From positions 402,001 through 442,041 of the forward strand of contig NW_003134345.1 of the NCBI RefSeq assembly GCF_000003605.2: a stretch of 40,041 nucleotides of DNA. Reading direction: 5' to 3'. Under the pieces are notes generated by a model, which was given only the letters and a program-made list of their open reading frames with translations, was not told the DNA's origin and did no database searches. The DNA is from Saccoglossus kowalevskii (taxonomy: Eukaryota > Hemichordata > Enteropneusta > Harrimaniidae). Both the position numbers and the translations under genes were made by a program. Positions 2,051-28,441 of the stretch are shown here, piece by piece (within the stretch, counting starts at the first letter, position 1; each line of letters begins with the position of its first letter).

Positions 2051-2169
2051 ACTTCAGGTTCTCTAAAATAAAAGGAATCAAACTCATGAATACTGTGGTT
2101 TGCCCGTATAATAGGTGTTATTCAATGATCAGTTTATGACGTACTACTCTGCCAGTGCCGTGAATGCAG

Positions 2170-3066
2170 TATTGTGATTGGACGAGAACTGTTTCAATTT
2201 ATGCAAGCCATAAATATATTTCTGTGATTGGACAAGGCTTGTTTTAATTTATGCAAGCCATAAATATATATGTCTGTGATTGAACAAGGCTTGTTCTAAT
2301 TTATGCAAGCCATAAATATATATTTCTGTGATTGGACAAGGCTTGTTTTTAATTTATACAAGCCATAAATACATTACTGTGATTGGACAAGGCTTGTTTT
2401 AATTTATGCAAGCCATAAATATATTGCTGTGATTGGACAATGTTTGTTTTAATTAGTGCAAGCCATAAATATATATTTCTGTGATTGGACAAGGCTTTTT
2501 TTTAATTTATGCAAGCCATAAATACATTACTGTGATTGGACAAGGCTTGTTTTAATTTATGCAAGCCATAAATATATTGCTGTGATTGGATAAGGCTTGT
2601 TTTAATTTATGCAAGCCATAAATATATATTTCTGTGATTGGACAAGGCTTTTTTTTAATTTATGCAAGCCATAAATACATTACTGTGATTGGACAAGGCT
2701 TGTTTTAATTTATGCAAGCCATAAATATATTGCTGTGATTGGATAAGGCTTGTTTTAATTTATGCAAGCCATAAATATATATTTCTGTGATTGGACAAGG
2801 CTTGTTTTTAATTTATGCAAGCCACAAATACATTACTGTGATTGGACAAGGCTTGTTTTAATTTATGCAAGCCATAAATATATTGCTGTGATTGGACAAG
2901 GCTTGTATTAATTTATGCAAGCCATAAATATATATTTCTGTGATTGGACAAGGCTTGTTTTTAATTTATGCAAGCCATAAATACATTACTGTGATTGAAC
3001 AAGGCTTGTTTTAATTTATGTAAGCCATAAATATATTGCTGTGATTGGACAATGTTTGTTTTAATT
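2170..3066 (+). repeat. ~50-bp satellite, ~18 copies, trimeric higher-order repeat
   Basis: The monomer is about 50 bp: CTGTGATTGGACAAGGCTTG followed by TTTTAATTTATGCAAGCC and ATAAATATATT. From about 2325 on, the monomer joints cycle through three forms in fixed order (AATACATTACTG, AATATATTGCTG, AATATATATTTCTG), giving a higher-order unit of about 152 bp repeated between four and five times. Most monomers hold two overlapping inverted repeats, GGCTTG/CAAGCC and ATTTATG/CATAAAT, that cannot pair at once. Nearly all monomers also carry ATTGG, an inverted CCAAT core. Confidence 0.93.
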
Positions 3067-4524
3067 TCATATTAGAATCAATTTAATTTTACTCCGGTCA
3101 CGTCAGGAATGAGTCGGTGTTATTTTGTTTCCATAATTTAGAGTTTTTTATCACCAATTGTTGGTATTAAATCTTCGGCAACTTGAAAGACTTGAATGGG
3201 TGAATGTCTACAAAAAATTCATGACTGGTTGGTTTTTATAGGTTTACAACATTGTCTATTCAAATCGAACGTTAAATGAAACGGTTGGTATGTTTTATGT
3301 AGCATCATTCGGTCTCACGAGATTTCCTATCTAACGGTAACTCCACTTTCACGTTCACAGACTCTTCGCATCAATGTCATGTTCCCCGTATCGGGGGTAT
3401 ATTTAAATCAAATTAAAATAAACTATATTTAGCAGTATACCCACCTTTAAGTATTTACTCCGTGCGTCATTATTTCCCATGTGAGTTCGTTTTTTTGAAT
3501 GAACAATGTGTGTGTGTACCCTGTGGGGCTGGAATCTAATAAGAGATTGATTTGTTTCACATCCATTGTAATCTTGGCGTTTAGTTTAAAGGTTCTAAAG
3601 AAATGGCTGTCACCAAATATTGTCGCACTTTTACACTCACGGCCTTGGAAACTATCACGTGAAAGAAAAAAGTGTCACATCGTTGCCTAGTTGGTACAAA
3701 AGAACCTATGTTGGGTGCCGCTCTCTTGACATGAATCAAATAGTTTACGGTTAAATGGGCACCATCGTATGGTCACCCTGTATAATTGTAGTTAGCAAGC
3801 TGTATATACAGTGTAGCACACCTTACAACCAACATAAAGTCTGGCTGTAATCTAACTCATGCAGAAATAATGTCCAGTCGTAAAACTGGTTATGCACGAT
3901 GGCGTGTTAATGAATGTAACTAATGTACATTTGATAAGCTGCGTCTTCAAATTATTATGAGTGATCTGAAACAAGTGATACGACAAAATATAGAGTAACA
4001 TTATTTCTTATACCCATGGGGAAATGCATTGAGACTATGAATACCTAATTTCATTGGATGAAAAGTTCATTCTCACACTGTAGATCTAACGAGAGCATGA
4101 GCCAGCCACCTGTTTGAATGCTATTAAAAAACCAAAGAGTGTAGTCACAGGAGATGAAATGACTGTCTTCACAAGACACATATTGTCAGCAGAGAATGTC
4201 GCCGACTCAAGGCTGGACTCACATACCATAGACACGCCTAAAGAAATCCATTCACTTTGGGCTAGTATGCTTAGATCCCTGATTTCAATTAAGTATGACC
4301 CAGCACGTAAGACGACGATTGTTATACTTGTATGCGAACCAACAGAAAGGTGAAATTGAATGAAATGAAATTCTTACCGTTCTTTATTTGTCCCTTCAAC
4401 AGTACTCATTTTATTCTTCAAACACTTAATCCCCTCGAACATATCGGTATGCGTACCCATATATTTTGCTTAAGATACTATTGTGCCATATAACTCAAAT
4501 TATGAAATTTGTTTTGTTACTCAC
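3067..4524. other. No gene recognised; may hold the rest of the secreted gene's intron
   Basis: Open frames at 3499-3690 and 4114-4353 on the plus strand have no family signature and no matching splice context. On the minus strand this could be intron 1 of the gene whose signal-peptide exon is at 4525-4600, but I found no second exon with confidence. Confidence 0.4.
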
Positions 4525-6682: not shown

Positions 6683-7050
6683 TTACGGTACGACAGTAGA
6701 GAAACTGCCGATAATTCCAGTCAATTCTGGTCTTTCAGTAAACCATTCTAGTACCACTTCATTGCCGGGTGCGATAATACTACTCGGAAGTGAAGAACTT
6801 TCTGTTATGCATTCATCCACTAAGTTGGTTGAACTTCCATTTAAACGGACTCTCAGCTCGGCTTTACATAAAGGACATTCGGGATGAGATGGATCATCGA
6901 AAAAGTGGTCAAAATGTATCTGAATGTTTGTTCCGGGTTCAGTCATCAAATTTAATTGGGTGAGTTTTCTTCGGGAATTGTGATTAAAATACCTCGGTGT
7001 TGAGAACTGTCCATTTCCTAACAAATTGGGATGTATCGTCTGCGCATGTC
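6683..7050 (-). CDS. Pseudoprotease exon 8: CUB-like C-terminal domain
   Basis: Acceptor TTTCAG|GACATG, stop TAA. Features GQFSTPRYF near the start, IQIHFDHFF in the middle, and EVVLEWFTE then GIIGSFSTVV at the end, the usual CUB strand order. Only three cysteines are present, so the standard two CUB disulfides cannot both form. A divergent CUB is the best reading; another beta-sandwich is possible. Confidence 0.6.
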
Positions 7051-10000
7051 CTGAAATAGATAAATGTATCATTAAGTATATAGTAACACTTCCTGATTCT
7101 CCACTACACTGCATTCCAATAACAATGCAGAGTACCCATACGTATCAATGTAAGTAACTTTCCTTCCAGGCTGAATCAAGAAAAGGAAGGCGCCTTTTTG
7201 AGGGGTACTTGATTCGACCACATTCAGCTAGCATACACATGATAATAAAATAAATGAGATTAATTTTCCGATATTTACTATATGGCTTGAAATCAAAGAA
7301 AGAGACAAGGTCGCATTTATTTAATTATCACTAGTACGTCAGCTGACTGTGGTTCCTGGTAGCGTAAATAGACATTCCGTTAAGGCTGCCCGATACACAG
7401 TGCAAGGTGTAAAAAACAGAAGCCGGATTTAATGGCTTATAGAAAATACATGCAAAATGTTCAAAGTATAGAATTTGATATTGCAATCAAAAAAAATAAA
7501 TTAAAAGGACACGTTAAAAAATGGGGAAATTTTCTGAAAGTTGTGGGTTAGACTGATGTAATAAATGTACCTGAGGTCATTAAAGCTAGTTATAAACCAA
7601 GTATTGGAACATATAAATGAGCAAGAAAATACTAGAAATGTAATTTTATTGTGTATTTCAAGTAGTGTAATTCATATGAGATACCCCAATAAAATATCAT
7701 TTAAAAAAAAAAAGGCTGCCCGATACAGTTTTTTTTTTTTTTTACATTTTTCGAATAAGGTTGCTCATTGCTACTATATAGGAATAATGCTAATGGGGCC
7801 ACAGACAAAATGTTTGAGAAAAAACATAAACTCGTATTACTTTGTGTGGATGACGTAGTTAATACACGGGAAAGTAACAAATTAGAAATCTTAGCGATTT
7901 TCAAAAACTTGTCGGTTTTACCAACATCGTTCAAACACAATATGGTAGTAAATGACTGTATAATAGAACAGTGATTAAATGTTTGTTTGTTAATTACATG
8001 ACATGCCTGCGTACTTAGTTCATTTCTGGTCATATTACCTTAGCAATGAATAAATTAGCTCGCGTACCATTTCTTTCATCATATCACCTACCTCCAAATT
8101 CCTGTAACCGAAAATACATTGTTCCTGGCATAGAGACCAAGCTGACTTCTTGGTAGTCTTCAAACCTCAGATCGCATTGTCCATCAGATTTTCTAAACGC
8201 AAACTGGTGGCAGACATAACCATGTGACGTCAGACAGCGGTCGGCACATTCGTCTACGTTAGCCGTCACAATACTTTCTGCTGGTGTATCACTGAATGAC
8301 GTCATGTATGTGGGATTGAAGTACTTTACATGTGCAGCTACAAACATATGTAAACAATATACACGTCATATCAACAACCCATTCAAAGAAACATTATATA
8401 CAGAGGCGGCGGAACGTAATGTTGCATGAGGGGCGAGATCTGAAATCTAGACCCTCTGAAACGATATTTCCTGCATCTTGGGGAACAAATGTTGTGACAC
8501 AAAGGGCTTCAGCTTGTTTTTGGAGGGGCGACGCCCCCACTCTGCCCCCCCCCCCCGTGCCGCCGCCAATGATACAGTAGTCACCCTTGAATGATATCAA
8601 ATAATTCTCTAATTATGGATTTATTTGACCATGAAAAATACGGGACCCGCACCTCCCAATCTGATTAAAATAAGATCACAGTTTGGGCTTTTTTTACCTT
8701 TTTTTTTGTTAATATATATTTTCATATATATATTTTTTTAATTTATTTGCTTGTATTTTTTGTTAAGTTTTGGCGAAAGCCCAAACTAGGATCATATTTC
8801 AATCAGATTCCGCATCTCTCAACCAGGCCACATGGGGGAGTTTTCTTCGCGTTTTGGGTGTTTAGTATGTATCGGGTGTGTTCACCTCAGATCATCGACC
8901 TATTGCTCTTATACACAAAAGCAGCAACCTTGATAGGGTTTTTTGAAAAAAAATTAAAAACTGGTAAAATTCGCAGTGTAGAATAAGACACATACTGATA
9001 TTCCGAGTTTTACCGAAATTGGTCGTAATGTTTTAGTAAACCTCCTCATACTCATATCTTTACTTTTAATAAACACGTGTCTTTTTGTCTTTATGTAACT
9101 TGTAAACCTCTATGGTTGTATTCATCTGCAGAGTGTATATCGCTACATAACTATACATCATTTATACATTGCAATAGACTTTTCCCCTTCAACTGCGAGG
9201 TCTCGTGAGTTGCGTGAAAAACGCGAGCCGAACGTCTGCCGCAAAAACTGAACAATTTGTTTGAACTCGAATTTCGTAGCTCACATGGAAGGCCGATCTT
9301 TGACAGGGGAATATTGTTTTTGAATACCTTTACTTCATTGAAATTTACCATCATCAAATGTGTACAGCACATTATTAAGCATGGAAATATCCCCAAAATA
9401 CTTTCGCGTTTGTCGAATCCCACGCGATGTTTGACGCCACTACGACGCTATGACCTTTGTTTGTTCTGTTTTTACGTTCGATTTTACGCGTAACTCGGGA
9501 TCTCGTGGTGAACGGAAAATGGTAAATCAGACTTTTGCTCCTTAGTTAGTAGTAATAATGCACAGATTTAAAGTACTAACTTGACTATTGAAAAAGTTGC
9601 CCAAGGCAGGGATTCAAATCTACAACATCAACCATAGCACATAGAGCCTCTAACTTCTGGGTCGGCAATACACGCCTTTCAGGGTGTACAGTATAGCCTT
9701 TGTATTTATTTATTTAAATTAATCTTAGTTGCTCACTGTACACTGAGAAAGGTAATTACTGACTGAGTCTTTCAATTTTATCATATTCGCACTTGTACAC
9801 GCCGCCCGATTGCCACCATGAAACACGATTCACCCTTCAAATCAATGACCTCTTGTTCATTTGCATTTACCAATATCAGCAATCCGAGTCGTTGGTCAAC
9901 ATTGGGGTCCACTGAAAATGATTATTCACAGTTCTAGCAATTCGTGCAAATTTATCAAATTTGTAACAAACTAGACTACACTTAGCCGAATTAATGGACC

Positions 10001-13000
10001 CTCCTTTAAAATCCAAAATATAATACGACGAGAGACCTCTTCAAGATTTAACTATAGTAGTTTTCATTACACTATATGCATCCGTGTTACAACTCACCGC
10101 AGTATTTTTCGTCATCGTTACCTAGGCAGAAAGTATAGCCATCGCATCTATAGAGTGATGATATACACTGAGGACTGGCACAACGGAATTCTGTCTCGTG
10201 ATGACAATCAAAACTTCCTATAGATTACAATAAAATGCGAATACAAAGAGTTTTCATGTAAGAATCATTCTGTTGTCAAATATAGTGTTTTGTTATTGAT
10301 GAGTGATGAAAACAACTCAATGGACGGCCTTATTTCCGTCATGTATGCCATACAAGCGATTCGTTGATCAATGGGCGACTTATACAAACAGCGTATATAC
10401 TAAAATACAGTACAGACAGTCAACTTACTAGACAATGGTGTCAAGCCATTCACGGCATTTTCTATAAAATCTGTAAACACAGTCGACATCTTTGTATATA
10501 CGTCTGGAATACCTGGAATAGCGCCACACTTTCCAGATCCAAAACTTAAAATACCACCCAGAAACCAGATACCATCCCTCACGCAGTTCAATGGAGCTCC
10601 AGCGTCACCCTGTGGAAAATAATGTCGTCTGTTAGGGTAGCGGTTAGTAAGTCGCATCTAAACCAAATTGTCCGCTACCAACTCAGTCGCCCGAATACCA
10701 ACTCGCCCGTAACCAACTCGATTTCGTTTTTGACAAAATACTGATATTCAAGTTTGTCGATTTCAATGTAAATAATACCGGTGTTGTCGATTTGTGACGA
10801 TGTGATTTGACACTCTCCGCAGCAGCTACTCGATTTTGGTGATTTTAATATGTTGGGGTATTATCATACATTTCCGGACTGAACGTTCTTATCAGAACCC
10901 CATACTTCTCCCTATTATACCTATTCCAATACTTTCGACTGTGTTCAGTTTGTTTACTGAGATGAATTAACTGACGTTTCTCATGGACAGGTATACCCGT
11001 AATAAGAAAACTGTGTTTTAAAATGTCTAGTGAAATTACCACCCACTACTGTTCACGCTCGTCCTCTTGCTTGTTGTCAGTTTCGTACTGATGCAGTGGC
11101 ACATAAGATAAGGCGGTCTTTCGCGGATAAAGTAAAGATAATGGAGATGTTGAACTGTTCGAGTTACGGACATCGGGTTACGAATAACGAGTACGAAAAC
11201 ATCGACTTACAAAAATGACGCTGCTTTCGAGAAGCCACGTAAATTGTAACTCGATGTCTTCGAGTTACGGGCAATATACATTTTTGTTTTTGTTGAACGT
11301 CCACATTTAGTAACTTGAACGTAAATTAAAAGTTACCCGGATTTCGAGTTACAGACAACATACATTTGTCATTTTGTTTAACGTTAAAATTTAGTAACTC
11401 GAATTTTAATTAATTAACTGTTAACTGAAATTCGAGTTACGGGAAACATAAAACATTAAACAAAATAAAATATATATGTCGCATGTAACTCGAAGATCGG
11501 TTAACTGCTAATTAAATTTCGAGTTACTAAACGTGGACGTTCAACAAAAACAAAAATACAGGTTGCCCGCAACTCGAAGTTCTATTAACTGTTATTTGAA
11601 CTTCGAGTTACAATTTAGGCGTGTTTTTTTTTTCAAAAGTGGGCGTGTTTTTTTAAATATGGGCGTGGCAATTTTTGTAATTCGATGTTTTCCTAACTCG
11701 ATGTTCGTAACTCGAACATTTCAGCGTCTCAAGACAATGCGTGGTACTGTATTGGTATTCGTTATTATTCGAAATAAAATAAGAACTGAAACTTACATGG
11801 CAGGCTCCTATTTGCTCTGTCGGGAAACCAGCACAGATATGATTGTCGGTTATCGGTACGCTCCATTGTTTCCAGATAGAATAACACGTTTCTTTATTGA
11901 CTTGGTCCATTAATGCTTCGTGCATTTTAGATGGGAATGTACCGCCTGTGCGATAATAATAATAATAATAATATTATTGGTAATGCCAAATGTATAGCTG
12001 AGATTTGCGGAAAGTTCCATGTAACAACCATATGAAATTATTCGCTACAACCGTAAATAATGTTCTGTGATGAATTTTACATATTTGTTACAAGGAGAAA
12101 AAAGGCCATGGAGCTCTGACGGAACGTACCGGTAAGCATGGTTTAGATATCAATTGAGGTGGGTAGTCTATATAACGCGGAACCAAAATCGAAATCTGTA
12201 GAGCAACTCAATTAAATTGCAATCCTATATAGGAATGCAATTTAATTACAATATAATTAAACTCAATTAAAATGCTTTAATAACAATGACATTTAATTTA
12301 ACTCAAATGAAATGCGATTCTATATCGGAATGTAGTTTGATTACAGTATGTTTAAACTGTATCTAGGTGAAATATAGTAAATTCAATGACATTCAACTTA
12401 AACTTGTACATGTATTAAATTTAATTTATCGTGTCTTGGAATTAGGATTATGATAAAAAGATATTTAGGTATACTGTATGTCTACCTAAACCGTAAACTA
12501 AATACCAAGACACGTATTTATTTAAATTGACTTTAATATTAATTTTACAGTTTTGCAATTCCGGTTTCGGTTCCGCGTTTCATAGACAACCAATTACCAA
12601 CTGCTCTGCGCATGTTAACGGAGCGGAGTGGTCAATTCCGGTATTGGTGGCTATTTCAGGTTGATAACATATTACGTATTTCGTACAATTTTCACAATAT
12701 CATCCATATTATGTCCACTCATGATCACCACAAATACCGACATAACAAGACACCATTCTGGTCATTCTTACCTGTGATTTGCCCATACCCTGTTAACCAA
12801 CATTCATCAAACGTTGTATAATCAAACGCTTCATCGACAACACATATAGGATCGAAGTTACTGGCGGGAGTTGATAACTTGAGTAAACATGCGTCGTATT
12901 CACGTGTTGCATGGTCAAATAACGGATGGATCATCATTTCTGTCACTCCAAAGGTTTGCTCTATTCCCGTACCATATCCATCCCCCAAAACGACCGTAAA

Positions 13001-14621
13001 TATCGTCGGATCTGTCCATTTTAATCTATACACGGAACAAAATCCTAGTGTCAGTCCATAGTATTCGAAGTGGGTTCTATGCGACATATACAATATGCGT
13101 AAAATACGTTTACGCGAAATTCGAAACTCTCGCTCTAGCAATTTTTAAAGTCAAAATATTGTATTTGTTATAATACTGCACTAGTATTTGTAAAACATTG
13201 TAATTCATGCTTGATCGAGCAAAGTATTCCTGCAGGTCACGGTAATCATTAATCTGTGGCAAAATGTACCTCCAAAGGGATTTGCATTTACATTAATGGT
13301 TATCGAACCTTTTTGGTACAACAGACTATACTTACATGCACTGTGCACTGGTTAACGCCCACATATGATCTACGAGTACGACTGTACATACATCTTGTCC
13401 ACTGAATCGTAAGTGACCGGTCCATTGCCATTTGTATACATCATCAACTACATTGCCGCCGGCTACACGTTTTCTTGTCTCTGAATAACCCGTCTGTGTT
13501 CCACAGTCTGTTAAAACAATCCAGTTGATCGTGACATTGAAATGACGCATTTGTTATCTGTTTATCATGTGACTAATTTTATACGTATATTCATCTATTA
13601 AAGATGCAATATGAACGAAAACATATTTTTTTTAGAAATTGCTGGTTGATATGGCATTCTGTGAACCGAACTGGAGTTTGATTTATTGTCATATAGTATT
13701 TGTTAGATGGAATACGCAGGTGCAGTCACTGTTGTTATATGTAATAATAATATAATATCTTTATTTCGTACTGCGGCCTTATGTACAGATACATATAAAT
13801 ACATAATAAATTAGATTGGAATGGTCGCAGAAATAAGTAAAGAAAAACAACTATAAAATCAGAAAATTTGAATAATTAAGTGTTATATGTATCTAAACAA
13901 TACATGTGTATTGGAGAATCTCATTATGTCATGTTATATGGCGTATATTTATGATAATGGCATAAATACCAGAAAATCGATCAACAGTTATTTTTCTGTT
14001 GTTATGCATGTACGTGTCATGAAATTATCCACTCGGTGAGCGCTCATTTGGTGCCACGTGACAAAGATAATGGTTACTCATTATTACCTGAATTAAACAT
14101 ATGTGTTGATAAGTCAACATGACATGTTCATAGTAAGTTATATAACAGTGGCAGCGGCACGGGGGAGGGGTGCCCCCGAAAAAATGCGCGACCACTACGG
14201 GGCGCAAGGGATGGTGAGCAGATCTCGCCTCCCCATGCATAATTTCGTGCCTCCGCCTCCGCCTCTGTATAACTTAAACTATTATAGAAGTAGTCTGAGG
14301 TTATAACTACCATACTCCGCGACTTTAGACGTACAGGTCATACTAGTTGAACCGCTGACTATTTTGTAAATACGCGTATACTAGTATTAACGAATCTGTA
14401 AACATAAATATACAAGGTATATATTTTATACTGTTGATGATTTCGTAATGTGCAACCCATCTAGTAAAATATCTTGCGTTATTATTTCCATCTTTGAAAA
14501 TATTTTCCGAACAGGTTATCGTGTGAAGAACGTGATTTAAGTTGTTAAAACAGAGCTTACCTGCCGTCGTAGGTGTCAAAAATAGGCACAGACCTCCAAC
14601 CAGAGATAGAATATACCTCAT
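6683..14621 (-). CDS. Secreted serine-protease homologue with LDLa, PAN and CUB-like domains, catalytically dead
   Basis: Eight exons join in frame (14561-14621, 13336-13507, 12772-13025, 11797-11945, 10429-10609, 10098-10217, 8092-8337, 6683-7050), giving 1551 bases and 516 residues. Residues 1-20 are a signal peptide. A light-chain stub carries C22, then R34|VAGG, a typical zymogen cleavage site. The trypsin fold spans 35-272. LDLa is 277-312, PAN 313-394, and a CUB-like domain runs 395 to the end. The triad is broken: His57 is Q76 (TSAQC), Asp102 is D122 (YDACLLKL) and Ser195 is A215 (GDAGAPL). Gly193 and Asp194 positions are kept, and C22 can pair with C139. The protease-fold domain comes first, whereas most mosaic proteases carry it last. 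The protein is probably a ligand, cofactor or decoy rather than an enzyme; its partner is unknown. Domain and splice calls are strong; function is inference. Confidence 0.88.
7172..7217. repeat. Small perfect-stem hairpin in pseudoprotease intron 7
   Basis: GAATCAAG and CTTGATTC form an 8-bp stem around the palindrome AAGGCGCCTT. It sits alone in the intron and has no link to a known element. Confidence 0.5.
7218..8091. other. Pseudoprotease intron 7, short direct repeat
   Basis: GGCTGCCCGATACA occurs near 7386 and again near 7714, beside A- and T-runs. This may mark the ends of an old insertion. Open frames here on both strands lack motifs. Confidence 0.4.
8092..8337 (-). CDS. Pseudoprotease exon 7: PAN/apple domain
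   Basis: Acceptor TGTAG|CTGCAC, donor GGAG|GTAGGT, phase 1-1. Four core cysteines at 343, 347, 355 and 367 (DEC-ADRC, VCHQFAF, GQCDL) with spacing C-x3-C-x7-C-x11-C. This is the same spacing as in the membrane PAN gene at 29364-29618. Confidence 0.85.
8401..8571 (+). mobile_element. hAT-like MITE, copy 1
   Basis: Starts CAGAGGCGGCGGAACG and ends near GTGCCGCCGCCAATG, so the termini are inverted and begin CAGAGGCGG, as in many hAT elements. It has no coding capacity. A related copy lies inverted at 14146-14267, sharing TATACAGAGGCGG and GGCGAGATCTG. It lies in pseudoprotease intron 6. Confidence 0.6.
8655..8812. mobile_element. Foldback element with 34-bp arms
   Basis: The left arm 8658-8691 (AATCTGATT, then AGTTTGGGCTTT) is repeated as its reverse complement at 8776-8809 (AAAGCCCAAACT, then AATCAGATT). 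The T-rich and AT-rich spacer is about 85 bp. It is typical of a non-autonomous DNA element. Confidence 0.65.
9179..9526. mobile_element. Foldback MITE, ~345 bp
   Basis: Arms of about 70 bp pair imperfectly: left TTTTCCCCTTCAAC, then CGAGGTCTCGTGAGTTGCG and CGAACGT; right ACGTTCG, TTTTACGCGTAACTCGG, then GATCTCG and GAACGGAAAA. Short frames inside are by-products of the element. No clean target-site duplication was recognised. Confidence 0.6.
9590..9685 (-). mobile_element. Possible tRNA-derived SINE head
   Basis: On the minus strand the segment has AGTTAGAGGCTC as a weak A-box-like stretch and GATTTGAATCCCTGCC, close to the tRNA B-box and T-arm. A true tRNA is not formed. Confidence 0.35.
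9824..9923 (-). CDS. Possible cassette exon between LDLa and PAN
   Basis: The minus strand has acceptor TTTTCAG|TGGACC at 9923 in the phase needed after the LDLa exon. It reads VDPNVDQRLGLLILVNANEQ and on through EVIDLK to a possible donor G|GTGAAT that would keep the phase for the PAN exon, adding about 33 residues. If unspliced it runs to a stop after ESCFMV...QVRI. The protein is complete without it, so this is a candidate only. Confidence 0.25.
10098..10217 (-). CDS. Pseudoprotease exon 6: LDL-receptor class A domain
   Basis: Acceptor CTATAG|GAAG, donor GCG|GTGAGT, phase 1-1. Six cysteines (277, 285, 290, 297, 303, 312) with FRC, QCI, RCDG and NDDEKYC, the calcium-cage signature. One usual cage acid before the fifth cysteine is F302, so calcium binding may be weakened. 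Confidence 0.9.
10429..10609 (-). CDS. Pseudoprotease exon 5: serine-loop with Ala
   Basis: Acceptor CCACAG|GGTGAC, donor TCTA|GTAAGT. Starts GDAGAPL where active enzymes have GDSGGPL, so the nucleophile is lost and Gly197 is also Ala. It continues ILSFGSGKCG, then PDVYTKMS and the C-terminal helix FTDFIENAV. Confidence 0.9.
10675..10830. repeat. Short degenerate CCAACTC repeats in intron 4
   Basis: TACCAACTC, TACCAACTCGCCCG and TAACCAACTCG follow one another near 10677-10725. This is a small tandem cluster with no coding content. Confidence 0.4.
11156..11718. mobile_element. Large nested foldback MITE rich in CGAGTTAC
   Basis: Outer arms start TGTTCGAGTTACGGACATCG at 11156 and end with the matching reverse complement at 11718. 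A second, inner inverted pair (11258-11314 and 11523-11579) shares TTTTTGTTTTTGTTGAACGT and is nearly perfect over some 55 bp. GTAACTCG/CGAGTTAC recurs about ten times in both orientations. It has no coding capacity. It ends about 80 bases from exon 4 of the pseudoprotease gene. Confidence 0.75.
11797..11945 (-). CDS. Pseudoprotease exon 4: domain middle
   Basis: Acceptor GCACAG|GCGG, donor CCAT|GTAAGT. Encodes the conserved C-x16-C stretch from TCYSIW to HICAGF, ending at GACH just before the serine loop. The residue at chymotrypsin position 189 is Gly, so the specificity pocket lacks trypsin's Asp. Confidence 0.88.
12162..12591. mobile_element. Foldback MITE with GCGGAACC arms
   Basis: The left arm GGTAGTCTATATAACGCGG (12162-12180) is matched in reverse at 12569-12591, where TTCCGCGTTTCATAGACAAC is read. 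Inside, CGTGTCTTGG (12430) pairs with CCAAGACACG (12505). The body is AT-rich with repeated AACTCAATTAAA-like motifs. It lies in pseudoprotease intron 3. Confidence 0.65.
12772..13025 (-). CDS. Pseudoprotease exon 3: Asp-region
   Basis: Acceptor GTATAG|ATTAAA, donor CACAG|GTAAGA. Contains MIHPLFD, then YDACLLKL with the retained catalytic-position Asp (D122), then FDPICV (partner cysteine of the light chain) and CWLTGYG, the usual CWVTGWG strand. Confidence 0.9.
13336..13507 (-). CDS. Pseudoprotease exon 2: zymogen stub and His-region
   Basis: Acceptor AACAG|ACTGTGG, donor TGCAT|GTAAGT. Encodes CGTQ...TRKR|VAGG and ends at TSAQC, where active enzymes have TAAHC. C61 and C77 match the Cys42-Cys58 pair around the catalytic histidine. 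WVLTAAHC is WALTSAQC here. Confidence 0.9.
13738..13850 (-). mobile_element. Possible LINE 3' end fragment
   Basis: On the minus strand GTACGAAATAAAGATATTAT is followed by an ATT-rich microsatellite. An AATAAAGAT-type end with short repeats is common at LINE 3' termini. No reverse-transcriptase sequence is attached, so this is tentative. Confidence 0.25.
14146..14267 (-). mobile_element. hAT-like MITE, copy 2 (inverted)
   Basis: Termini CAGTGGCAGCGGCACG and GTGCCTCCGCCTCCGCCTCTG form inverted repeats. Read on the minus strand it aligns with the copy at 8401-8571 over both ends and GGCGAGATCTG. The flanks AGTTATA and TATAACT extend the palindrome. Confidence 0.6.
14561..14621 (-). CDS. Pseudoprotease exon 1: signal peptide
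   Basis: Reads MRYILSLVGGLCLFLTPTTA plus one base, then donor GCAG|GTAAGC. Hydrophobic core LSLVGGLCLFL; cleavage is likely after TTA. It ends in phase 1. Confidence 0.85.
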
Positions 14622-18313: not shown

Positions 18314-19010
18314 CACGTGCGTCTCGATCCCCAAGTCTGACATGTCACTCCGTGCATCTCGGTTCCCAATTCAGACTTGTCACTCCGTGCGTCTCGATCC
18401 CCAATGCTGACATGTCACTCCGTGCGTCTCGATCCCCAATGCTGACATGTCACTCCGTGCGTCTCGGTCCCCAAACTTGAATTCTGACATGTCACTACGT
18501 GCGTCTCGATCCCCAATGCTGACATGTCACTCCGTGCGTCTCGGTTCCCAATTCAGACTTGTCACTCCGTGCGTCTCGATCCCCAATGCTGACATGTCAC
18601 TCCGTGCGTCTCGGTCCCCAAACTTGAATTCTGACATGTCACTACGTGCGTCTCGATCCTCAATGCTGACATGTCACTCCGTGCGTCTCGATCCCCAATT
18701 CAGACTTGTCACTCCGTGCGTCTCGGTCCCGAATTCTGACATGTCACTCCGTGCGTTTCGACCCCCAATGCTGACATGTCACTCGTGCGTCTCGATCCCC
18801 GATGCTGACATGTCACTCGTGCGTTTCGATCCCCGATGCTGACATGTTACTCAGTGCGTCTCGATCCCTAATTCAAACATGTCACTCAGTGCGGCTCGAT
18901 CCCCAATTTTGACATGTCACGCAGTGCGTCTCGGCCCCAATTCTGACATGTCACTCAGTGCGTCTCGATCCCCAATTCTGACATGTCACTCCGTGTGTCT
19001 CGAATTTTAC
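18314..19010 (+). repeat. 35-bp minisatellite, ~20 copies
   Basis: The unit is GTGCGTCTCGATCCCCAATG followed by CTGACATGTCACTCC. Several variants alternate: ATGCTGACATG, ATTCAGACTTG, and a 42-bp form with AAACTTGAATTCTGACATG. Between about 18456 and 18750 one 42-bp and three 35-bp units recur as a block of about 147 bp. The long open frame on the plus strand is a product of the repeat, not a gene. Confidence 0.93.
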
Positions 19011-19673
19011 ATTCCAAAAATTAGCTCATGAAATGTTGCTCTCCTATCGAATTTGCTTGTGTAAAGTGACCTAACCATTTTTATTATTAAACCAGTTTGC
19101 TTTAAAAGTCTATGCACGTTCTGATCCAGGGACAAAAGAACCGAATGGATATTCATCCTTCTATAATTGTGACGTAAGAACATTATTTCAGTATAGCGAT
19201 TGGATTATTTATTAGAGAAGCCAGAACCAAAATTTGGGATGTGACAATAACATCTATGATAATGGGCAACGATATATATTACATGAATGGGTGGTTATTT
19301 AATCCCTTGTAACACTGAGAACAAACAGGCACGTCGTGATGTTCGACAAATAACACTCCAATCATATGTTGACACTGAACAACCAGCAACTAGAACCACT
19401 GTGGCACCCTACTTCCCTGCTTGAAATAACTCCACCTTCTCAACAACAACAACACAGTAACATCCGGGACAGCCGCAGTAAATTTGCAGCGAGTGATTAT
19501 GACCAGTAATACCATGGATTGCTGAGACGCTATCGCCGACATTCACATGGCTGGTGTATAAGGATTAGTATTACAGTGATTAAAACTATGTGAGAAAACT
19601 AAATTCATACCCTTTTGAGCTTTTCAATCATGCGCTTAATCTATATGCTCTGTTTCTATGCCGCTATTATTGA

Positions 19674-19683
19674 TTTATTTATT
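19674..19683 (-). terminator. Polyadenylation signals of the left PAN-receptor copy
   Basis: Overlapping AATAAA hexamers on the minus strand about 30 bases after the stop at 19711-19713; a third lies at 19697-19702. Confidence 0.5.
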
Positions 19684-19710
19684 TCTCATATTCTTGTTTA
19701 TTACAAACTA

Positions 19711-19868
19711 CTACTCCTTGAAAGAAGTGTTACTAATTCCGCCGTTAGCGCCCTCAACGGCTGGTGTGTCGACCTCGTCGACGTGTTGTATGTCTTCCAT
19801 CACGGAGTTCTCATCGGGTTTTGTCTTGTCGGGGTTGAGTTCTTCTAAGAAGGGGTCGGTTAGGCTAA
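19711..19868 (-). CDS. Left PAN-receptor copy: cytoplasmic tail exon
   Basis: Acceptor TTCTCAG|TTAGCC, stop TAG. Reads VSLTDPFLEELNPD, then DENSVMEDIQ, DTPAVEGANGGI and ends SNTSFKE. The right copy has VSLIDPFLEELNHE, DENALLEEIQ, DTPSVEGATGGI and a longer end. Confidence 0.75.
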
Positions 19869-22800
19869 CTGAGAAAAAAATAGAGAATTATTATTACATT
19901 TTATATTTCTTTGTCAATATTTTTGATAGGGGTTGCCAAGCACTAGATTTATTAATTTACATAAAGATGAGACAGCGTCTGAGCTGCTGAGAAAATCGAC
20001 AAGTGAGTATGATTCATTTTACATTCATTTCCAATCGACAATATTTGTGATCATAAGTTGACATGGGCCTTGAAATGTTCTTATTTAACGAAAATAAACG
20101 ATGAAATGAGGTAAACCATATATAATAGTATGTAGTTTTTATATCGGCGCAATCTTCTATGTCTATTTAGAGAAATCAGTATGACTTTTCCTAGCAACGA
20201 AAGATTTGCGTCCTCTGACGACGGTCAGCGAAGGCGCGGTTCATTAAAATTTTAAATTATTCTCGCCGTAAAATACATATTTTTCACATGCTACATATAA
20301 TTTCCAGTTAAACAAGGGGTTGTGCAACAAGATTCGTACCTTTAAAGTGACGTCTGAGTTGAACTTCCCTCTTAGTTATAATATGTATAGCCATACCCAA
20401 CATTGCTACGATAACGACGCCAACAGCGGCGAATACTACGCAGGATATATAGAGAGCGGCTCGCTGGTACTTGAGATCTATTATTTCGTCTTCTTGCTCT
20501 TGACAATTGCTAGACTGGATAGTTACGACTGTATAACAAATATATGAATATTCAAAAATACTGCTTTCAAAAAATAATATTGTTGTTATATGCTCGCACA
20601 TTACCTTCAATGTTTGACTGTGGGATATAGTGTTCAGACATTTTTTGCTATAATAGTATATGTAGCAAACGATCACTATTTTCATTAATATTAGTATTCA
20701 AGACAATTCAACCCTGAGTAAGACAGTTCATGATGATTGTATTTTTCCTGCAGATTATATTTCCCAATCCCTCCGCCGGCAGCAATAATAACACGGTGAG
20801 CAAATATCACTATTTTCATTAATATTAGTATTCAAGACAATTCAGCTGAGTAAGACAGTTCATGGTGATTGTATTTCTCCTGCAGATTATACCCCCCCCC
20901 CGGCAGCAATAATAATACGATGAGCAAACATTACTATTTTCATTAATACTAGTATTCAAGACAATTCAGCTGAGTAAGACAGTTCATGGTGATTGTATTT
21001 CTCCAGCAGATTATATTGCCCCCCCCCCTCCTCCCAGGCAGCAATAATAACACGGTGAGCAAATATCACGTGACCAAAATTGACGCATCACATACCTGGT
21101 ATTCTTGCCAAATCCCAATGTTCATTGTTGTCGCTGTCAGCTGTGATAANNNNNNNNNNNNNNNNNNNNNNNNNNNNNNNNNNNNNNNNNNNNNNNNNNN
21201 NNNNNNNNNNNNNNNNNNNNNNNNNNNNNNNNNNNNNNNNNNNNNNNNNNNNNNNNNNNNNNNNNNNNNNNNNNNNNNNNNNNNNNNNNNNNNNNNNNNN
21301 NNNNNNNNNNNNNNNNNNNNNNNNNNNNNNNNNNNNNNNNNNNNNNNNNNNNNNNNNNNNNNNNNNNNNNNNNNNNNNNNNNNNNNNNNNNNNNNNNNNN
21401 NNNNNNNNNNNNNNNNNNNNNCACAGAGTGTTGGTTATTACACCTGACAAGGGTTACGTTCTGTTGCCAATCCTATACTTTCATTAGATGTCTAGGTTAA
21501 ATAGTGTGTTGTCTTTAGCATATGTTCATTGTTATTTTATATGCAAATTGAAAATAAATATTGAATATAAAGTGTAATTTTGCCACACAAATGCATACTA
21601 GTATTCCATTGTTGGGACTAAGTGACAGTGGTGTTGTCACGGTGTTATCATGAAACCGTAAATTGCATTGCTAAAGTCGAGAAACAGCACAAACTCAACT
21701 ATAAGATAACCCTGAACAACCAAATTTATATATTTATAATTTCAGGAGAGTCTCAACAACTAGCCCAAAGTGCTTTTTATTGAGAATTTTCAGCCTTTGT
21801 TTTCACAGTGAAGGTTGCCAAGTGGTGGAAATGCCCGGATGTCCGCCCCGGGTATTTATGAAAAATATTTGTTTAGAAGATTCATCACCAGAAGCATGGA
21901 GGTGTAAACAGACCTCCATGCCAGAAGCAACGTTTTATGCTGGATTCGAACTCGCAATTTCAACTTGAGCTCAAAAGCATCGTTCTTTAATCTTCTAGCA
22001 ATTCGAGAGAGCAATCGTTTTTCGGTCCTCGTTGCATTCAAAATGTGGTCATCATATGCGAAATGTAACGTCATAGTTGAATGGTATTCCCTGAACCCAG
22101 ACTGACAATTGGTCAACTGGTTATTCTGTTTTAAATAATCACAAATTTGAGAGTTTTGACCCTTTCAATCAATTTAAAAACTATTGGTAAATATGCATCC
22201 AGTGATAGTTGTTTACTTCAGTTTTAATTCCAGATTTATACACAGGAACTACTTTTGCTGATGTTCATTCATTTGCTACTTCCCTACTAGAGAATGTCAT
22301 ATCATTATATACATTGAGGAAGGTGCTATTTTATTTTTTGACCTTTACAAACGGCGACTACTTCTACCAAGACCCGTGGCTATATTCACGGAGTTAAGAT
22401 TTGATAACAGAGGCAATGGTTTTATTAAAGTGAAATACAGAGTCTGACTTTGACAGTGGAATATTCGGCCTACCTGGTAAAACTTCTGGGAGTTCATTTG
22501 CTAATCAAGTACCAATACTACTAAAGAATTGACGGACTAAACTTTATTAATTATGTTATCATTTCTTAAATCTCTCGTGACTGTCGAAATAATTAAGACA
22601 ACCTTTTCGAAGAAGTCATTATTGCAATTCTTCACTTTTCAAAGTAGGCAAATAAAACAGGTCGGTACATGTACATGGTGACCGTCAAAATATTGGGTGT
22701 CAATGTCACATATACATAGGTTAAAGCTCGACTGTGAAGTAATTTGGGAAGGAGTTCTTTAGGGCCCCCGTCCCGAGCCTAAACCCTGACATTAACATTC

Positions 22801-25800
22801 TAGCCCCCAAAGTAATAGTATATGCCCCTTCAGATAACTATACATGACCATGAAAGGGGCGTGTACACTTAAAATGGTAGAGGGGCACTGAAGGGGCAGG
22901 GTTAGTATTAGAGTTATGGGTGAAGAAACTGTGACCGTAATTTGGCTGTGTTCGATAATGAATTCTAAATAACGGCAACTATCCAATTTGATAACCAGGT
23001 CGTTCACAGTTCCTCTATAGAGGGACTGTGAGTCGTCATAGTGCTTTGAGTTCTTGGCACCATCTTGCCGGTTGGTCAGAACGCGGTCACGTGGTGGTGA
23101 ATAAAAGTCAGTTTTGACTCGCGGTCATAATAAAATTCCTCGATTCTTTATTGAGCCTGAGCAGTTTTAGTATTCACAAAAACGTAAAATAAATAAATAA
23201 ATGTTCATTTCAGGTAATTTTAACATATGTTGTGCTTATGTAATCAGTATAATAAAACTTGTAGTTACCTTAATGTCGGTCAATACTCAATTTTATTGGC
23301 TCTCGGGAAATGTTGACCTCGACTGCGCCTCGACTCCCTTTCAGGTCATTACGACTGAATATTAATCTCCTCTTCGGTTATTATTGTATAATATATATAG
23401 GGAATTCGAAGCGCACGCGCACTAAAGTTTTCATTGTTTGCTGCATTTTAAGATAAAATCAAAGCACATTGTTTTTTATCCAAACTGCCTCATTAAAAAG
23501 GTGTCTGTTTGAAAATTTCTACTGCCCCACTGTTGTATTTTCGGACGGACATCCGGGTATTCTCACCACCTGGCAACCATTACCGGTGAAAACAAAAGCC
23601 AACAACTCCCAGGATGCAATACTTTGTGCTAGTTTTGATGAGACTTTCCTAAACAGTGTAACAAGACTACCTCTACCATAACATGTTCAACATATCTAAA
23701 TATGGTTGATGAAGATTACCTCAAAGTTGAGTTTGTGCTGTTTTTCGACTTTAGTTGTTTTCATCGGTTCCTCGACCGGAGTTCCGGGGGTGTACTCCCA
23801 TAGTTAAGGTATGCGTCGCTGTTTTAATCCCCCTTTTTTCGAGCTTTGTCGATCTTCAATTTTAAGATTTTTTGGCGAAAGACGTCAATTTTGAGTCCAA
23901 AAGTGCCCACATCGAGTCAGCGGTCTGTTTAGTCCAGTTTTCAGCTGGCTGCGTTCACTGGTTCCCGGTTTCCCTGCATTCTGAATGACACTTGAGGCGA
24001 GACCAGACAACTGGCTGCGGATCACCAAATATCAAAGTGAGCAGCCCCGGGTTCCACAGCAGCACGCGCAGAGCCTATTGAATACATTGCACAGTGGTGC
24101 GTGTCCAAGCATAACGTTATCTGACTCCGCCCTGAGAATTGATGATTTCCGAGTTACTTCTGCAGAAAGTTTATTCCATTTTCATCGTAATTGGGCGCAC
24201 ACGGCGGGGTCACTATACTTCTGGTTTATCAGTACGCACGGGATATCTTTGGCAAACCTGTATCATTCTCCACCCAAATATTGTTTCGAGTAGTAATTCA
24301 CAATAAATTACATTTTAATTTTCAAATTTGGTTATTGCTGTATTTATACCTATCAAACCAGTTATAAAGTGAAAGTCACACAAACACATTCCGACATCAC
24401 AGTGCTGGTAAACTCTTGTATATCTTTTCGAAATAGGCATTATACTGTGTTATAGTGACACAACTCATATATATTCTTATACAAACCCAGTGAACAATAT
24501 ATAGTCAATATGTATCAATTTTCATTTAATGTAAAGGCTGTTATTTTGCTACATTTCTACAAATCAAATATGTAAACTCGGCGACTCTGTCATCCTCGAA
24601 AAATCTAACATTTAAGAGCAGCAAAATTTGTCATTTTAACTCTCACAAGAATATAAATGCCCATTCACAATATCCTGCTTCTGTACTAGATGGGAAGTCA
24701 TTTCATACTGGTACCATATTTTGCAAAATGCGATAGTGAGTCCTGGCACCGTAAACACTAATGTTAGAAAATGTGTGAAATTAACTAGTTTTAAACAATG
24801 GCGTTGCAACTCAATTAATTCTCATAAATCCGCCGTTTTTTTTATTCCACTGTACGCGAGGTACGAACTGTTCGGAGTCGAGTGAATAACGTGTTTTGCA
24901 GCTCCCTCAACGGCAGAACGGTTCGTTTGAGAGTACTCGGAAAAGTTAAATTGTACGCACAAACCCGATGAAAGCTGGGGAATAATGGATTACAAATCTC
25001 AAACGTGTACTCGCGACAGTATTAGTTAATGACAAACCTCAACCATTGTAAGTTTATAAGATTTAAAAAATTATATTTTCAGTTTACTTACCGCCATACG
25101 ATGTACAGTTAACTAGGTTACCATAGCAACTACATAAGAGAACAAATACAATGGATATTTTCCTCATTTCGTTTGGTGGTGGCAGCTGCAATGGAAGATG
25201 TACAAGTGAGCAAACACGACTCGCATTCGCCATTCTCAAAAACACATAAACTGACTTGATCTTGTTTATAATAGTTTGTACAATCTTGTATACACTTGTT
25301 GCTGGGTGTATGTATATACATATATTGTTTGAAACTGTAATGTTAAAGAACAAATTGAATTATGACTTATCGTTATCTTTTGTAGAACTTGTATGTATAT
25401 TCTTTCGAGAAAAAAACACGCTAATACGTATCTGGTTTTTGCACATTCAAACACAATACGTGCATATACGTATTACAGCATGCCATTGATACATCGAATG
25501 AATACTTAGTACGCGGCAAAAACAATGCATTCAGTTCACGATACATCACAATTCTATGTGCCCAGTACCAAAGAGTAGTGTGGAAAATTATGTGTTCTCA
25601 TATTATGTGGAAATTGACTTCTGAATCAAATAACGTATTACTGTAATGTCAACGTGTTACAGTAATGCCAACGTATTACTGTAATGACAACGTGTTACTG
25701 TAATGCCAACGTATTACTGTAATGTCAACGTGTTACTGTAATGCCAACGTGTTACTGTAATGTCAACGTGTTACTGTAATGCCAACGTATTATTGTAATG

Positions 25801-27034
25801 TCAACGTGTTACTGTAATGTCAACGTGTTACTGTAATGTCAACGTGTTACTGTAATACTCTTGAAATAGCTACATGTCATTTTAGCTATTTTGATTTCAT
25901 GTCTGAATTAGTGGAAACTTACTTGACTAAATTGCCAACAATCACATTGTGAGAATACGCGTTTTATGTTGTTGAATTGGGTCATCTAAGGACTGCTAAC
26001 ATAGTGGCTAAACACTTTACATCACGTTTATAGAAAGATGGTATCAATGGTTATGAGATATGGGAATTATCGATAATAAAACCTTGTTTGTGACGGTCTT
26101 AGCAATTTAGAAGCGCGGCGTCCGTCTGGGAACAGACCATAAAGTATATATAAGCATCAGTCCTGGGCATCGGTTTAATATAAAACTTTGTCCTTCGTAA
26201 ATTGTTGACATTTATGACATTTTATTATTTGAGTTGGTGCACATTTGGGTCAACTCTCGGGGCACGCTGAACATGGTTGTTTCTGTATTTTATTAGAAAC
26301 ATGTAAAAATAATAATGTGTTTATGCGACATATTCGAAACACAGTGACGTCACACCACATACCTACCACGGGTTATCGAGCAGAGAGCCGAGAGAGATTA
26401 AACAACTAACCTAGTTTACTAATGGAGCATCGATGTACCGATGTTGAATAGTTCATCTATGATGGGCGAGGCTATGTGACGTCACGTGCTTAAGCGTTTC
26501 TACTGATATAGATTTATTATTCGTTAGCGGCGCATTACAGTACGACTCTGGCACATCATGATTTTCAGCGACGTATATTAGTTATTTGCTTGTAGAGTTC
26601 AATTTGAAAAAAAAAATGGACGAAAATGATTGAAAAACGCGAATCATATGACCTTTATACTAGTGCAATATATCTTATTTATCGTAATACCGAGATAGTG
26701 GGAAGATAACGATATTTATTATTAATAACTAATCGCATTTCAGGCCGGGCCACCATTGTTCACAATATTTTTGACTGATCCAGAATTTCAATATTATTAC
26801 AAATATAGTTTAACTGTGTTTTGTTGACACAACAAAGCGTACGGGAATCTATCGAGTGTACACATCTTGGATAATGTGGTGTCGTGTATCTATGATCGCT
26901 ATACTAAAGCCATTGATGTTACTGTGTTTATTACGTTACTCGGATTACAACTATGACTTCTAAACACCCTGTGAACACGTATAACTTGAAATACTCATTA
27001 AAGTAATATGTCGAAAAACGTCAGTAAACTTACC
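19711..27034 (-). CDS. PAN-domain type I membrane protein, left copy (partly in assembly gap)
   Basis: Tandem paralogue of the gene at 28227-33215, same exon plan and phases. Exons: 5' untranslated exon ending at 27034; start-codon exon 25092-25167 (18-base leader from 25185); PAN exon with only its end, 21096-21149, visible before the gap; membrane exon 20340-20528; tail exon 19711-19868. Visible parts join in frame with no stop. Expected length is about 225 residues if the hidden exon matches the paralogue. It has a signal peptide (MRKISIVFVLLCSCYG), a single helix (VVFAAVGVVIVAMLGMAIHI), a basic stop-transfer (TKREVQLRRHF) and an acidic tail, 19 residues shorter than the paralogue's from the exon start. 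The paralogue's dileucine motif is absent. Role unknown; a surface receptor or adhesion protein is inferred. Confidence 0.72.
20340..20528 (-). CDS. Left PAN-receptor copy: transmembrane exon
   Basis: Acceptor ATACAG|TCGTAA, donor AAAG|GTACGA; 189 bases, the same length as in the right copy. Encodes a short acidic stalk (CQEQEDEIIDLKYQRA), the helix and TKREVQLRRHF. It is about 96% identical in DNA to the right copy. Confidence 0.85.
20684..21063 (+). repeat. ~128-bp tandem repeat, 3 copies
   Basis: Units start near 20684, 20816 and 20940 with CATTAATA(T/C)TAGTATTCAAG and end with CAGCAATAATAAYACGRTGA. C-runs of varying length sit at the same place in each. The array fills intron 2 of the left PAN-receptor copy, between the membrane exon and the gapped PAN exon; no counterpart is seen in the right copy. 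Confidence 0.88.
21096..21149 (-). CDS. Left PAN-receptor copy: end of PAN exon
   Basis: Reads ITADSDNNEHWDLARIP then donor CCAG|GTATGT. The right copy has LTADTDNNEHWDLARIP with the same donor. The remaining 200 or so bases, including the four cysteine codons, would lie in the gap. Confidence 0.8.
21150..21421. other. Assembly gap (272 N)
   Basis: Undetermined bases. By comparison with the right copy the gap should contain about 200 bases of PAN exon. Confidence 0.99.
21655..21850 (-). mobile_element. Interspersed repeat, copy 1 (inverted relative to 23525)
   Basis: On the minus strand this reads CGGACATCCGGGCATTTCCA and CACTTGGCAACC, later GAGACTCTCCTGAA and GTTGAGTTTGTGCTGTTTCT. The same order occurs on the plus strand at 23525-23760. 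Family unknown. Confidence 0.6.
21851..22210 (-). mobile_element. LINE reverse-transcriptase fragment
   Basis: The minus strand has NCQSGFREYHSTMT then DDHILNA, the conserved stretch between the first two palm blocks of non-LTR reverse transcriptases (Q-GFR--HST--AL--V-DDI). Upstream, in another frame, LFKTE and weak matches to the preceding helix remain, so at least one frameshift is present. The palm YxDD block is not seen. It is an old, 5'- and 3'-truncated fragment in intron 1 of the left PAN-receptor copy; CR1/Jockey-like by motif, clade unsure. Confidence 0.55.
22211..23520. other. Intron sequence, nothing recognised
   Basis: Inside intron 1 of the left PAN-receptor copy. A GC-richer block at 22760-22920 has short inverted CCCCT/AGGGG motifs (GCCCCTTCAG, CTGAAGGGGC). 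No coding exon was found. Confidence 0.4.
23525..23760 (+). mobile_element. Interspersed repeat, copy 2
   Basis: Matches the inverted copy at 21655-21850: CGGACATCCGGGTATTCTCA, CACCTGGCAACC, GAGACTTTCCTAAA and GTTGAGTTTGTGCTGTTTTT. The two copies flank 1.7 kb that includes the LINE fragment, so the whole could be one composite insertion. Confidence 0.6.
23761..24295. other. GC-richer block with an unassigned 102-codon frame
   Basis: An open frame on the plus strand (23985-24293) reads MTLEARPDNWLRITKYQSEQ and on, with no motif I recognise. The block is richer in GC than its surroundings and directly follows an interspersed repeat, so it is more likely part of an old insertion than a host gene. 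Confidence 0.3.
25092..25185 (-). CDS. Left PAN-receptor copy: start-codon exon
   Basis: Acceptor ATTGCAG at 25186-25192, 18-base leader, ATG at 25165-25167, donor GGCG|GTAAGT. Encodes MRKISIVFVLLCSCYG, then NLVNCTSYG. The right copy has the same 18-base leader length, NLVNSVSYS at the end and the same phase. An in-frame upstream ATG exists but lies before the acceptor. Confidence 0.75.
25632..25859 (+). repeat. 19-bp minisatellite, 12 copies
   Basis: The unit AACGTGTTACTGTAATGYC is repeated twelve times. Two variants (GTGTTACTG and GTATTACTG; GTC and GCC ends) alternate for much of the array. It is upstream of the start-codon exon of the left PAN-receptor copy, in its 5' intron. Confidence 0.93.
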
Positions 27035-28226: not shown

Positions 28227-28441
28227 TTAAAGCGCAACCTTCTCGGGGACATTTACTGATTCAAAATCTTGGACAGCATCATTGCCAATTCCGCCTGTAG
28301 CGCCCTCAACGGATGGTGTGTCAAGGTTGTCGGAATCGTGCTGTTGTATTTCTTCAAGCAATGCATTTTCATCAGTTTCAGATCCGGGTCCATCTGCCTT
28401 CTCATGGTTGAGTTCTTCCAAGAAAGGATCGATTAGACTCA
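28227..28441 (-). CDS. Right PAN-receptor copy: cytoplasmic tail exon
   Basis: Acceptor TCCTAG|TGAGTC, stop TAA. Encodes VSLIDPFLEELNHEKADG, DENALLEEIQ, DTPSVEGATGGI and an end at PEKVAL. Strongly acidic. Confidence 0.85.

Follow-up and report, generated by a model that had tools for sequence, protein, structure and literature searches.

A predicted catalytically dead serine protease homologue of Saccoglossus kowalevskii with an N-terminal protease fold followed by LDLa, PAN and CUB modules

A gene within a 40,041-nucleotide stretch of the Saccoglossus kowalevskii genome (NCBI RefSeq assembly GCF_000003605.2, contig NW_003134345.1, positions 402,001 to 442,041 of the forward strand; hereafter 'the window', C2596:402001-442041 in the 572 Mb genome that we searched) encodes what is, by its sequence, a dead protease that is competent for cleavage. 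It is thus a serine protease homologue (SPH), a kind of protein already known, in an unusual arrangement in which the protease fold is N-terminal and is followed by three binding modules. A second gene of the same build, on contig C1728, is dead through other residues, from which we read the pair as a maintained two-gene SPH set and not as the product of sequencing error.

Eight minus-strand exons running from 14621 to 6683, their borders picked by hand, join into one 1551-base frame of 516 residues with a single stop at its end, in keeping with the span and exons proposed in an earlier note on this DNA, and with these borders all seven introns are GT-AG. The intron phases are 1-2-1-0-1-1-1, where 1, 2, 1 and 0 belong to the protease part, a pattern that we take to be that of trypsin-type genes, and 1, 1 and 1 lie around the modules; as the earlier note had it, each of the three binding modules stands behind a phase 1 intron, which is not so for the protease exons. 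The product is probably a secreted protein. In window coordinates, and with a slash marking the cleavage site here and below, the exons are as follows.

14561..14621, minus strand: exon 1, start codon and signal peptide (residues 1-20, judged by eye), phase 1 donor
13336..13507, minus strand: exon 2, light-chain Cys22, cleavage site TRKR34/V35AGG, Cys61, dead-His motif TSAQC (Gln76), Cys77
12772..13025, minus strand: exon 3, YDACLLKL (Asp122 kept, extra Cys124), Cys139 (light-chain partner), Cys153
11797..11945, minus strand: exon 4, Cys183, Cys200, Gly-Ala-Cys211-His ahead of the oxyanion Gly
10429..10609, minus strand: exon 5, GDAGAPLNC (Gly213, Asp214, Ala215, Ala217, Cys221), Cys240, end of the protease fold
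10098..10217, minus strand: exon 6, LDLa module, six Cys, phase 1-1; Pfam 27.6 bits
8092..8337, minus strand: exon 7, PAN module, four Cys, phase 1-1; exon alone 31.4 bits
6683..7050, minus strand: exon 8, CUB module, three Cys, stop codon; exon alone 18.2 bits, below the cut-off

A further phase 1 exon candidate, on the minus strand between LDLa and PAN (about 9783-9911), was considered and rejected, as it has no Pfam match, its best match in the paralogue is at E 0.41 and no good donor was seen by eye. Two repeats lie within the span of the gene: in the intron between exons 4 and 5 (window 11258-11611) about 320 bases match their own reverse complement at 77%, and window 9181-9523 is a dispersed repeat with copies (about 85% identity) in locus L029 and in the protease locus L052.

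The Pfam Trypsin profile matches residues 45-259 at 109 bits (cut-off 20.6), and the fold as a whole (about residues 20-263) aligns to the solved structures of enteropeptidase, TMPRSS6 and plasminogen, its best sequence matches. In alignment to solved proteases the place of the catalytic His is Gln76 (TSAQC), the Asp is kept as Asp122 (YDACLLKL) and the place of the Ser is Ala215 (CHGDAGAPL), which bears out the Gln, Asp, Ala triad of the earlier note; the second Gly of GDSGGP (Gly197) is Ala217, and Gln76, Ala215 and Ala217 are encoded by CAG, GCT and GCT. Retained are the site R34/VAGG, the oxyanion Gly193 (as Gly213), the equivalent of Asp194 (as Asp214) and the ten standard disulphide cysteines (22/139, 61/77, 153/221, 183/200 and 211/240, paired by analogy), so that the zymogen site, oxyanion Gly and light-chain cysteines (22/139, presumably paired) are indeed kept as had been claimed. 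An additional Cys124 is common to the window gene and the paralogue, and specificity place 189 is Gly in both (alignments, by eye). The trypsin profile and standard cysteines place the fold in the S1 (chymotrypsin) type, the residues of an active S1 protease (His57, Asp102, Ser195) read Gln76, Asp122 and Ala215, and a protein of S1 fold that has lost one or more of its catalytic residues is what is meant by an SPH.

A genome search with the protease part gave 22 matches: the gene's own four exons, three at C1728 (49-57% identity) and a weaker rest. The paralogue (G000:C1728, read in two 10-kb stretches) has the order trypsin fold-LDLa-PAN-CUB, as in the window gene, and its motifs strengthen the earlier claim of a dead protease: KR/VVGG, VTSVLC (His to Leu), YDACLLKL and GDRGSPL (Ser to Arg, Gly to Ser), with the GD before residue 195 kept. 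Its seven exons give an open frame of 494 residues with GT-AG at all six introns and with phases equal to those of the window gene at the six comparable introns; a 50-base gap in the locus ends where the readable exon 2 starts. Six-frame comparison of the two loci returned exons 2-8 and one dispersed repeat strongly, together with a few weak rows (E 0.001-0.007), and no acceptable further shared exon. The two proteins are identical at 214 of 482 aligned residues (482 codons including four misaligned at the N-terminus), with identities of 61, 65 and 35% at codon positions 1, 2 and 3, saturated synonymous differences (pS 0.805) and a nonsynonymous distance (dN) of 0.51, a codon pattern that looks like what long purifying selection leaves. 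Of the four modules, the protease fold is the best conserved (48% identity, against 45% for LDLa, 35% for PAN and 43% for CUB), which suggests that the dead fold itself does something.

The Pfam order Trypsin, LDLa, PAN, CUB, repeated in the paralogue, agrees with the earlier description of an N-terminal fold followed by three binding modules. LDLa covers residues 277-312 (27.6 bits, cut-off 24.1) and PAN residues 325-389 (PAN_1, 26.4 bits when the whole protein is searched and 31.4 when only the exon is, cut-off 21.4). The CUB module (residues 407-500) is weak by profile, at 18.2 bits for its exon and 14.2 bits within the full-length product, against a cut-off of 21.4; the paralogue's exon alone reaches 24.5 bits, above that cut-off, and its whole protein 20.9, just below. 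Over 111 residues the CUBs of the two genes are 44% identical. An AlphaFold2 model of the CUB exon from the two-sequence alignment has a predicted local distance difference test score (pLDDT) of 83.0 and a predicted template modelling score (pTM) of 0.80, as compared with a pLDDT of 52.0 without the alignment, and Foldseek places C1r CUB2 first among its solved matches (E 1.5e-5, template modelling score, TM, 0.68, root mean square deviation 4.0), followed by MASP-1 CUB1-EGF-CUB2 (E 1.9e-5, TM 0.62), then Neto2 and other CUB proteins; non-CUB proteins occur at ranks 40, 46, 49 and 50, four of the 50 rows listed. The identity of this module, weak by sequence, is thus supported by the predicted fold and by the paralogue. 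Since the window gene has three CUB cysteines and the paralogue exon six, the usual first CUB disulphide seems to be lost in the window gene.

How unusual the order is was gauged across the genome, where hit counts from the family searches are lower bounds and contigs are fragments. The trypsin search returned at least 106 exon hits, the window gene not among them at E up to 0.001; for CUB, scores were obtained for 150 of 402 candidates, a list that lacks the CUB exons of both the window gene and the paralogue, so that equally diverged downstream CUBs would be missed. Among the matches listed, a CUB lies 2.3-6.9 kb upstream, on the same strand, of seven trypsin clusters (one each on C3976, C614, C2858, C1058 and C2346, two on C2182), which is the usual order, no trypsin cluster has a CUB downstream within 10 kb, and the sole downstream CUB at less than 15 kb is 10.4 kb away, nearer to and upstream of the next protease gene. 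PAN and trypsin hits share a contig only at C2596 and C1728 (among the 52 PAN hits listed), C2596 being the contig of the window and carrying two PAN hits, one of them in a neighbouring gene. Searched against the whole genome, the CUB exon found two places at E up to 1, the window gene and the paralogue.

Ser195 is kept in 23 of 27 other trypsin last exons and lost in four (L052 Asn, GDNGGP; L055 Gly, GDGGGP; L058 Gly, GDGDGP; L059 Val, GDVGSS), so that dead proteases are not rare in this genome and further pseudoproteases are likely in it. Seventeen of the 27 stop within 16 residues past the domain and ten stay open for 19-64 residues, and no active sibling with the same C-terminal modules was identified among these 27 last exons (C4527:7449 and C1270:18181 not included). 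A tblastn search of 30 loci (L033-L062) with the six module sequences of the window gene and paralogue gave one match at E below 0.01, LDLa-like and at L048, the rest being weak chance-level rows; L048 is trypsin-type with GDSGGP, and its downstream LDLa-like matches (E 4.6e-4 and 0.15) may be part of the same gene. The 'reversed domain order' of the earlier note therefore needs qualification: it is unusual in this genome, given the upstream CUB at seven clusters, but precedents exist in ovochymase 2 (OVCH2) and honey bee SP20, both taken up below, and maybe in L048. No protein described with the exact order trypsin-LDLa-PAN-CUB was found in the open-access text that we surveyed, a scope that excludes animal protein databases.

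We think it rather probable, by analogy, that the window protein is a cleavage-gated SPH that works by binding and not by cutting, as a cofactor, scaffold or decoy within a cascade of extracellular proteases, which might be immune, clotting-like or of another kind, as with arthropod SPHs. The parts of the switch are read from the sequence (a basic site, a small hydrophobic new N-terminus, and the Asp194 and Gly193 equivalents), and we infer the remaining mechanism. A trypsin-like or proprotein-convertase-like enzyme would cut after KR34, the 14-residue light chain would stay tied through Cys22-Cys139, and Val35 would insert against Asp214, reshaping the former active-site loops into a docking surface. 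This non-catalytic face would then bind a partner, and LDLa, PAN and CUB, all C-terminal to the cut on one chain, would tether the protein to partners or surfaces. Because the cut comes before the fold and all the modules after it, cleavage would change shape and free only a disulphide-tied 14-residue peptide.

Several points weigh against such a cleavage-gated role. The site TRKR/V has no Arg at P4, so that furin cleavage is uncertain; the gene model is predicted from the sequence, and its membership of a cascade is argued by analogy. The calcium ligands of LDLa are partly lost in both genes (by eye), and the paralogue's LDLa scores 16.2 bits against the cut-off of 24.1. Exon 1 of the paralogue, and hence its light-chain Cys, was not found by tblastn, and the selection argument rests on two sequences, which by themselves do not show present-day constraint on the window copy.

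The gene could instead be a pseudogene or an assembly error, a formerly active protease with errors at the triad, and single-base steps would indeed suffice for His to Gln and for Gly to Ala. However, the frame and splice sites are intact, three separate changes are required, the paralogue carries different replacements at these positions and is also dead, and synonymous sites have reached saturation while the protein is still 44% identical, all of which makes this explanation hardly credible; a sequencing error at the triad is likewise very unlikely, because it needs three separate errors and because of the paralogue's different residues at the same places. A protein of the egg coat, sperm or reproductive tract, of ovochymase-like design and docking on gamete surfaces by its C-terminal CUB, seems to us unlikely. 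OVCH2, which is required for male fertility in mice, has a protease domain and then tandem CUBs at its C-terminus (PMC10850435), and the window protein follows this order with LDLa and PAN as extras in between, a likeness of layout. The CUBs of OVCH2 are in tandem, however, the portion of that paper available to us mentions neither LDLa nor PAN, and its title states that OVCH2 does not need its CUBs to function (PMC10850435).

As an HGF-like ligand, the cleaved protein would act as a signal outside the cell, its protease-like face and PAN binding a receptor on the cell surface. HGF is cleaved at R/V and has Gln for the catalytic His and Tyr for the Ser, residue changes for which a single literature search listed no paper; a PAN, a dead protease fold and an R/V site are what the window protein has in common with it. 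In HGF, a PAN or N domain and four kringles make up the alpha chain, which holds the high-affinity site for the receptor, and an SPH domain without enzymatic activity is the beta chain, with a second site, cleavage being needed (PMC10784391, PMC9348577). HGF and HGFL (MST1), which are plasminogen-related ligands, thus resemble the window protein in joining PAN to a dead protease fold that is preceded by an activation cleavage, but their four kringles, modules N-terminal to the cut and binding to MET and RON have no counterpart seen here (PMC10784391, PMC9348577). The window protein has no kringle match in Pfam and its modules come after the cleavage site, so that neither the kringles nor the C-terminal protease of the plasminogen/HGF family is present; no HGF chain is among the best 60 of 507 matches to solved structures, and any receptor is putative. 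Across the genome, none of the 86 kringle hits listed shares a contig with a listed trypsin hit, and a plasminogen/HGF gene is therefore not evident among these matches. Since cleavage here would free no module, and since kringle and trypsin hits share no contig among those listed, we see in HGF a loose analogy that our data do not call for, and we regard an HGF-like ligand as decidedly unlikely.

It is conceivable, though we would not lean on it, that the two genes represent an undescribed family of cleavage-gated pseudoprotease ligands or cofactors, with an N-terminal dead fold and, after it on one chain, three adhesion modules, that arose independently of HGF and of clip-domain SPHs and has at least two members with different dead residues and the switch kept. 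The finding alone opens no new class of system. With it the repertoire of pseudoproteases gains an unusual domain order, and two paralogues with different dead residues and a shared switch offer a clean test of why non-cutting proteases keep a zymogen switch.

Elsewhere in the window, 28230-29748 and 19640-21430 (both minus strand) hold two related PAN-transmembrane genes or copies: a PAN exon lies at 29251-29748 (minus strand; PAN_1, 1.2e-9), the stretch at 28981-29230, which includes a membrane-like segment (by eye), is 91.6% identical to 20328-20576, and the PAN exon of the second copy seems to enter an N gap at 21150-21421. Window 36334-36639 (plus strand) is an early coding part of the VPS35L gene (Commander complex; PDB match 8p0v, E 6.2e-6), and tandem repeat arrays together with a 474-base tandem duplication (98.3% identical) occupy 2157-3067, 18316-19003, 267-1217 and 25632-25856. 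Among other contigs, G000:C3233:136650-144356 (minus strand) holds one uninterrupted 2656-codon reading frame in which many CUB hits follow one another. Contig C4830 (L069) is probably mitochondrial. Its COX1 is on the other strand from ND1 and COX2; Lys sites that we take to be invariant read AAA, which speaks against the echinoderm code, and sites that are presumably usually Ile read ATA, a mix of traits odd for an animal mitochondrion.

Among known systems, enteropeptidase, TMPRSS6 and plasminogen, the best fold matches, are active enzymes with a C-terminal protease domain, and the matched chain positions agree with that placement, unlike the window protein. In Schistosoma mansoni, SmSP1 has the order CUB-LDLa-protease (PMC3967958). 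Honey bee SP20, listed with nudel, contains 3LDLA-SP-3LDLA-pSP and more, and so resembles the window protein in that a protease domain is followed by LDLa repeats. SP23, listed with Tequila, ends in LDLA-PA-2LDLA-SP and brings LDLa, PAN-apple and protease together; both are far larger and differently ordered, with the protease domain of SP23 coming last (PMC1761132). Arthropod SPHs (clip-domain SPHs and masquerade) share with the window protein an S1 fold, lost catalytic residues and a kept cleavage site (PMC6901238). Unlike the clip-domain SPHs, the window protein has its fold at the N-terminus, its binding modules at the C-terminus and no clip domain, with no clip family match at E up to 1 and with only 14 residues between its presumed signal peptide and the cut. 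The clip-domain SPHs of mosquitoes have no catalytic activity and must be cleaved before they can act in melanisation (PMC6901238), and these cleavage-activated proteins are the closest analogues with a tested function and a better functional precedent than HGF.

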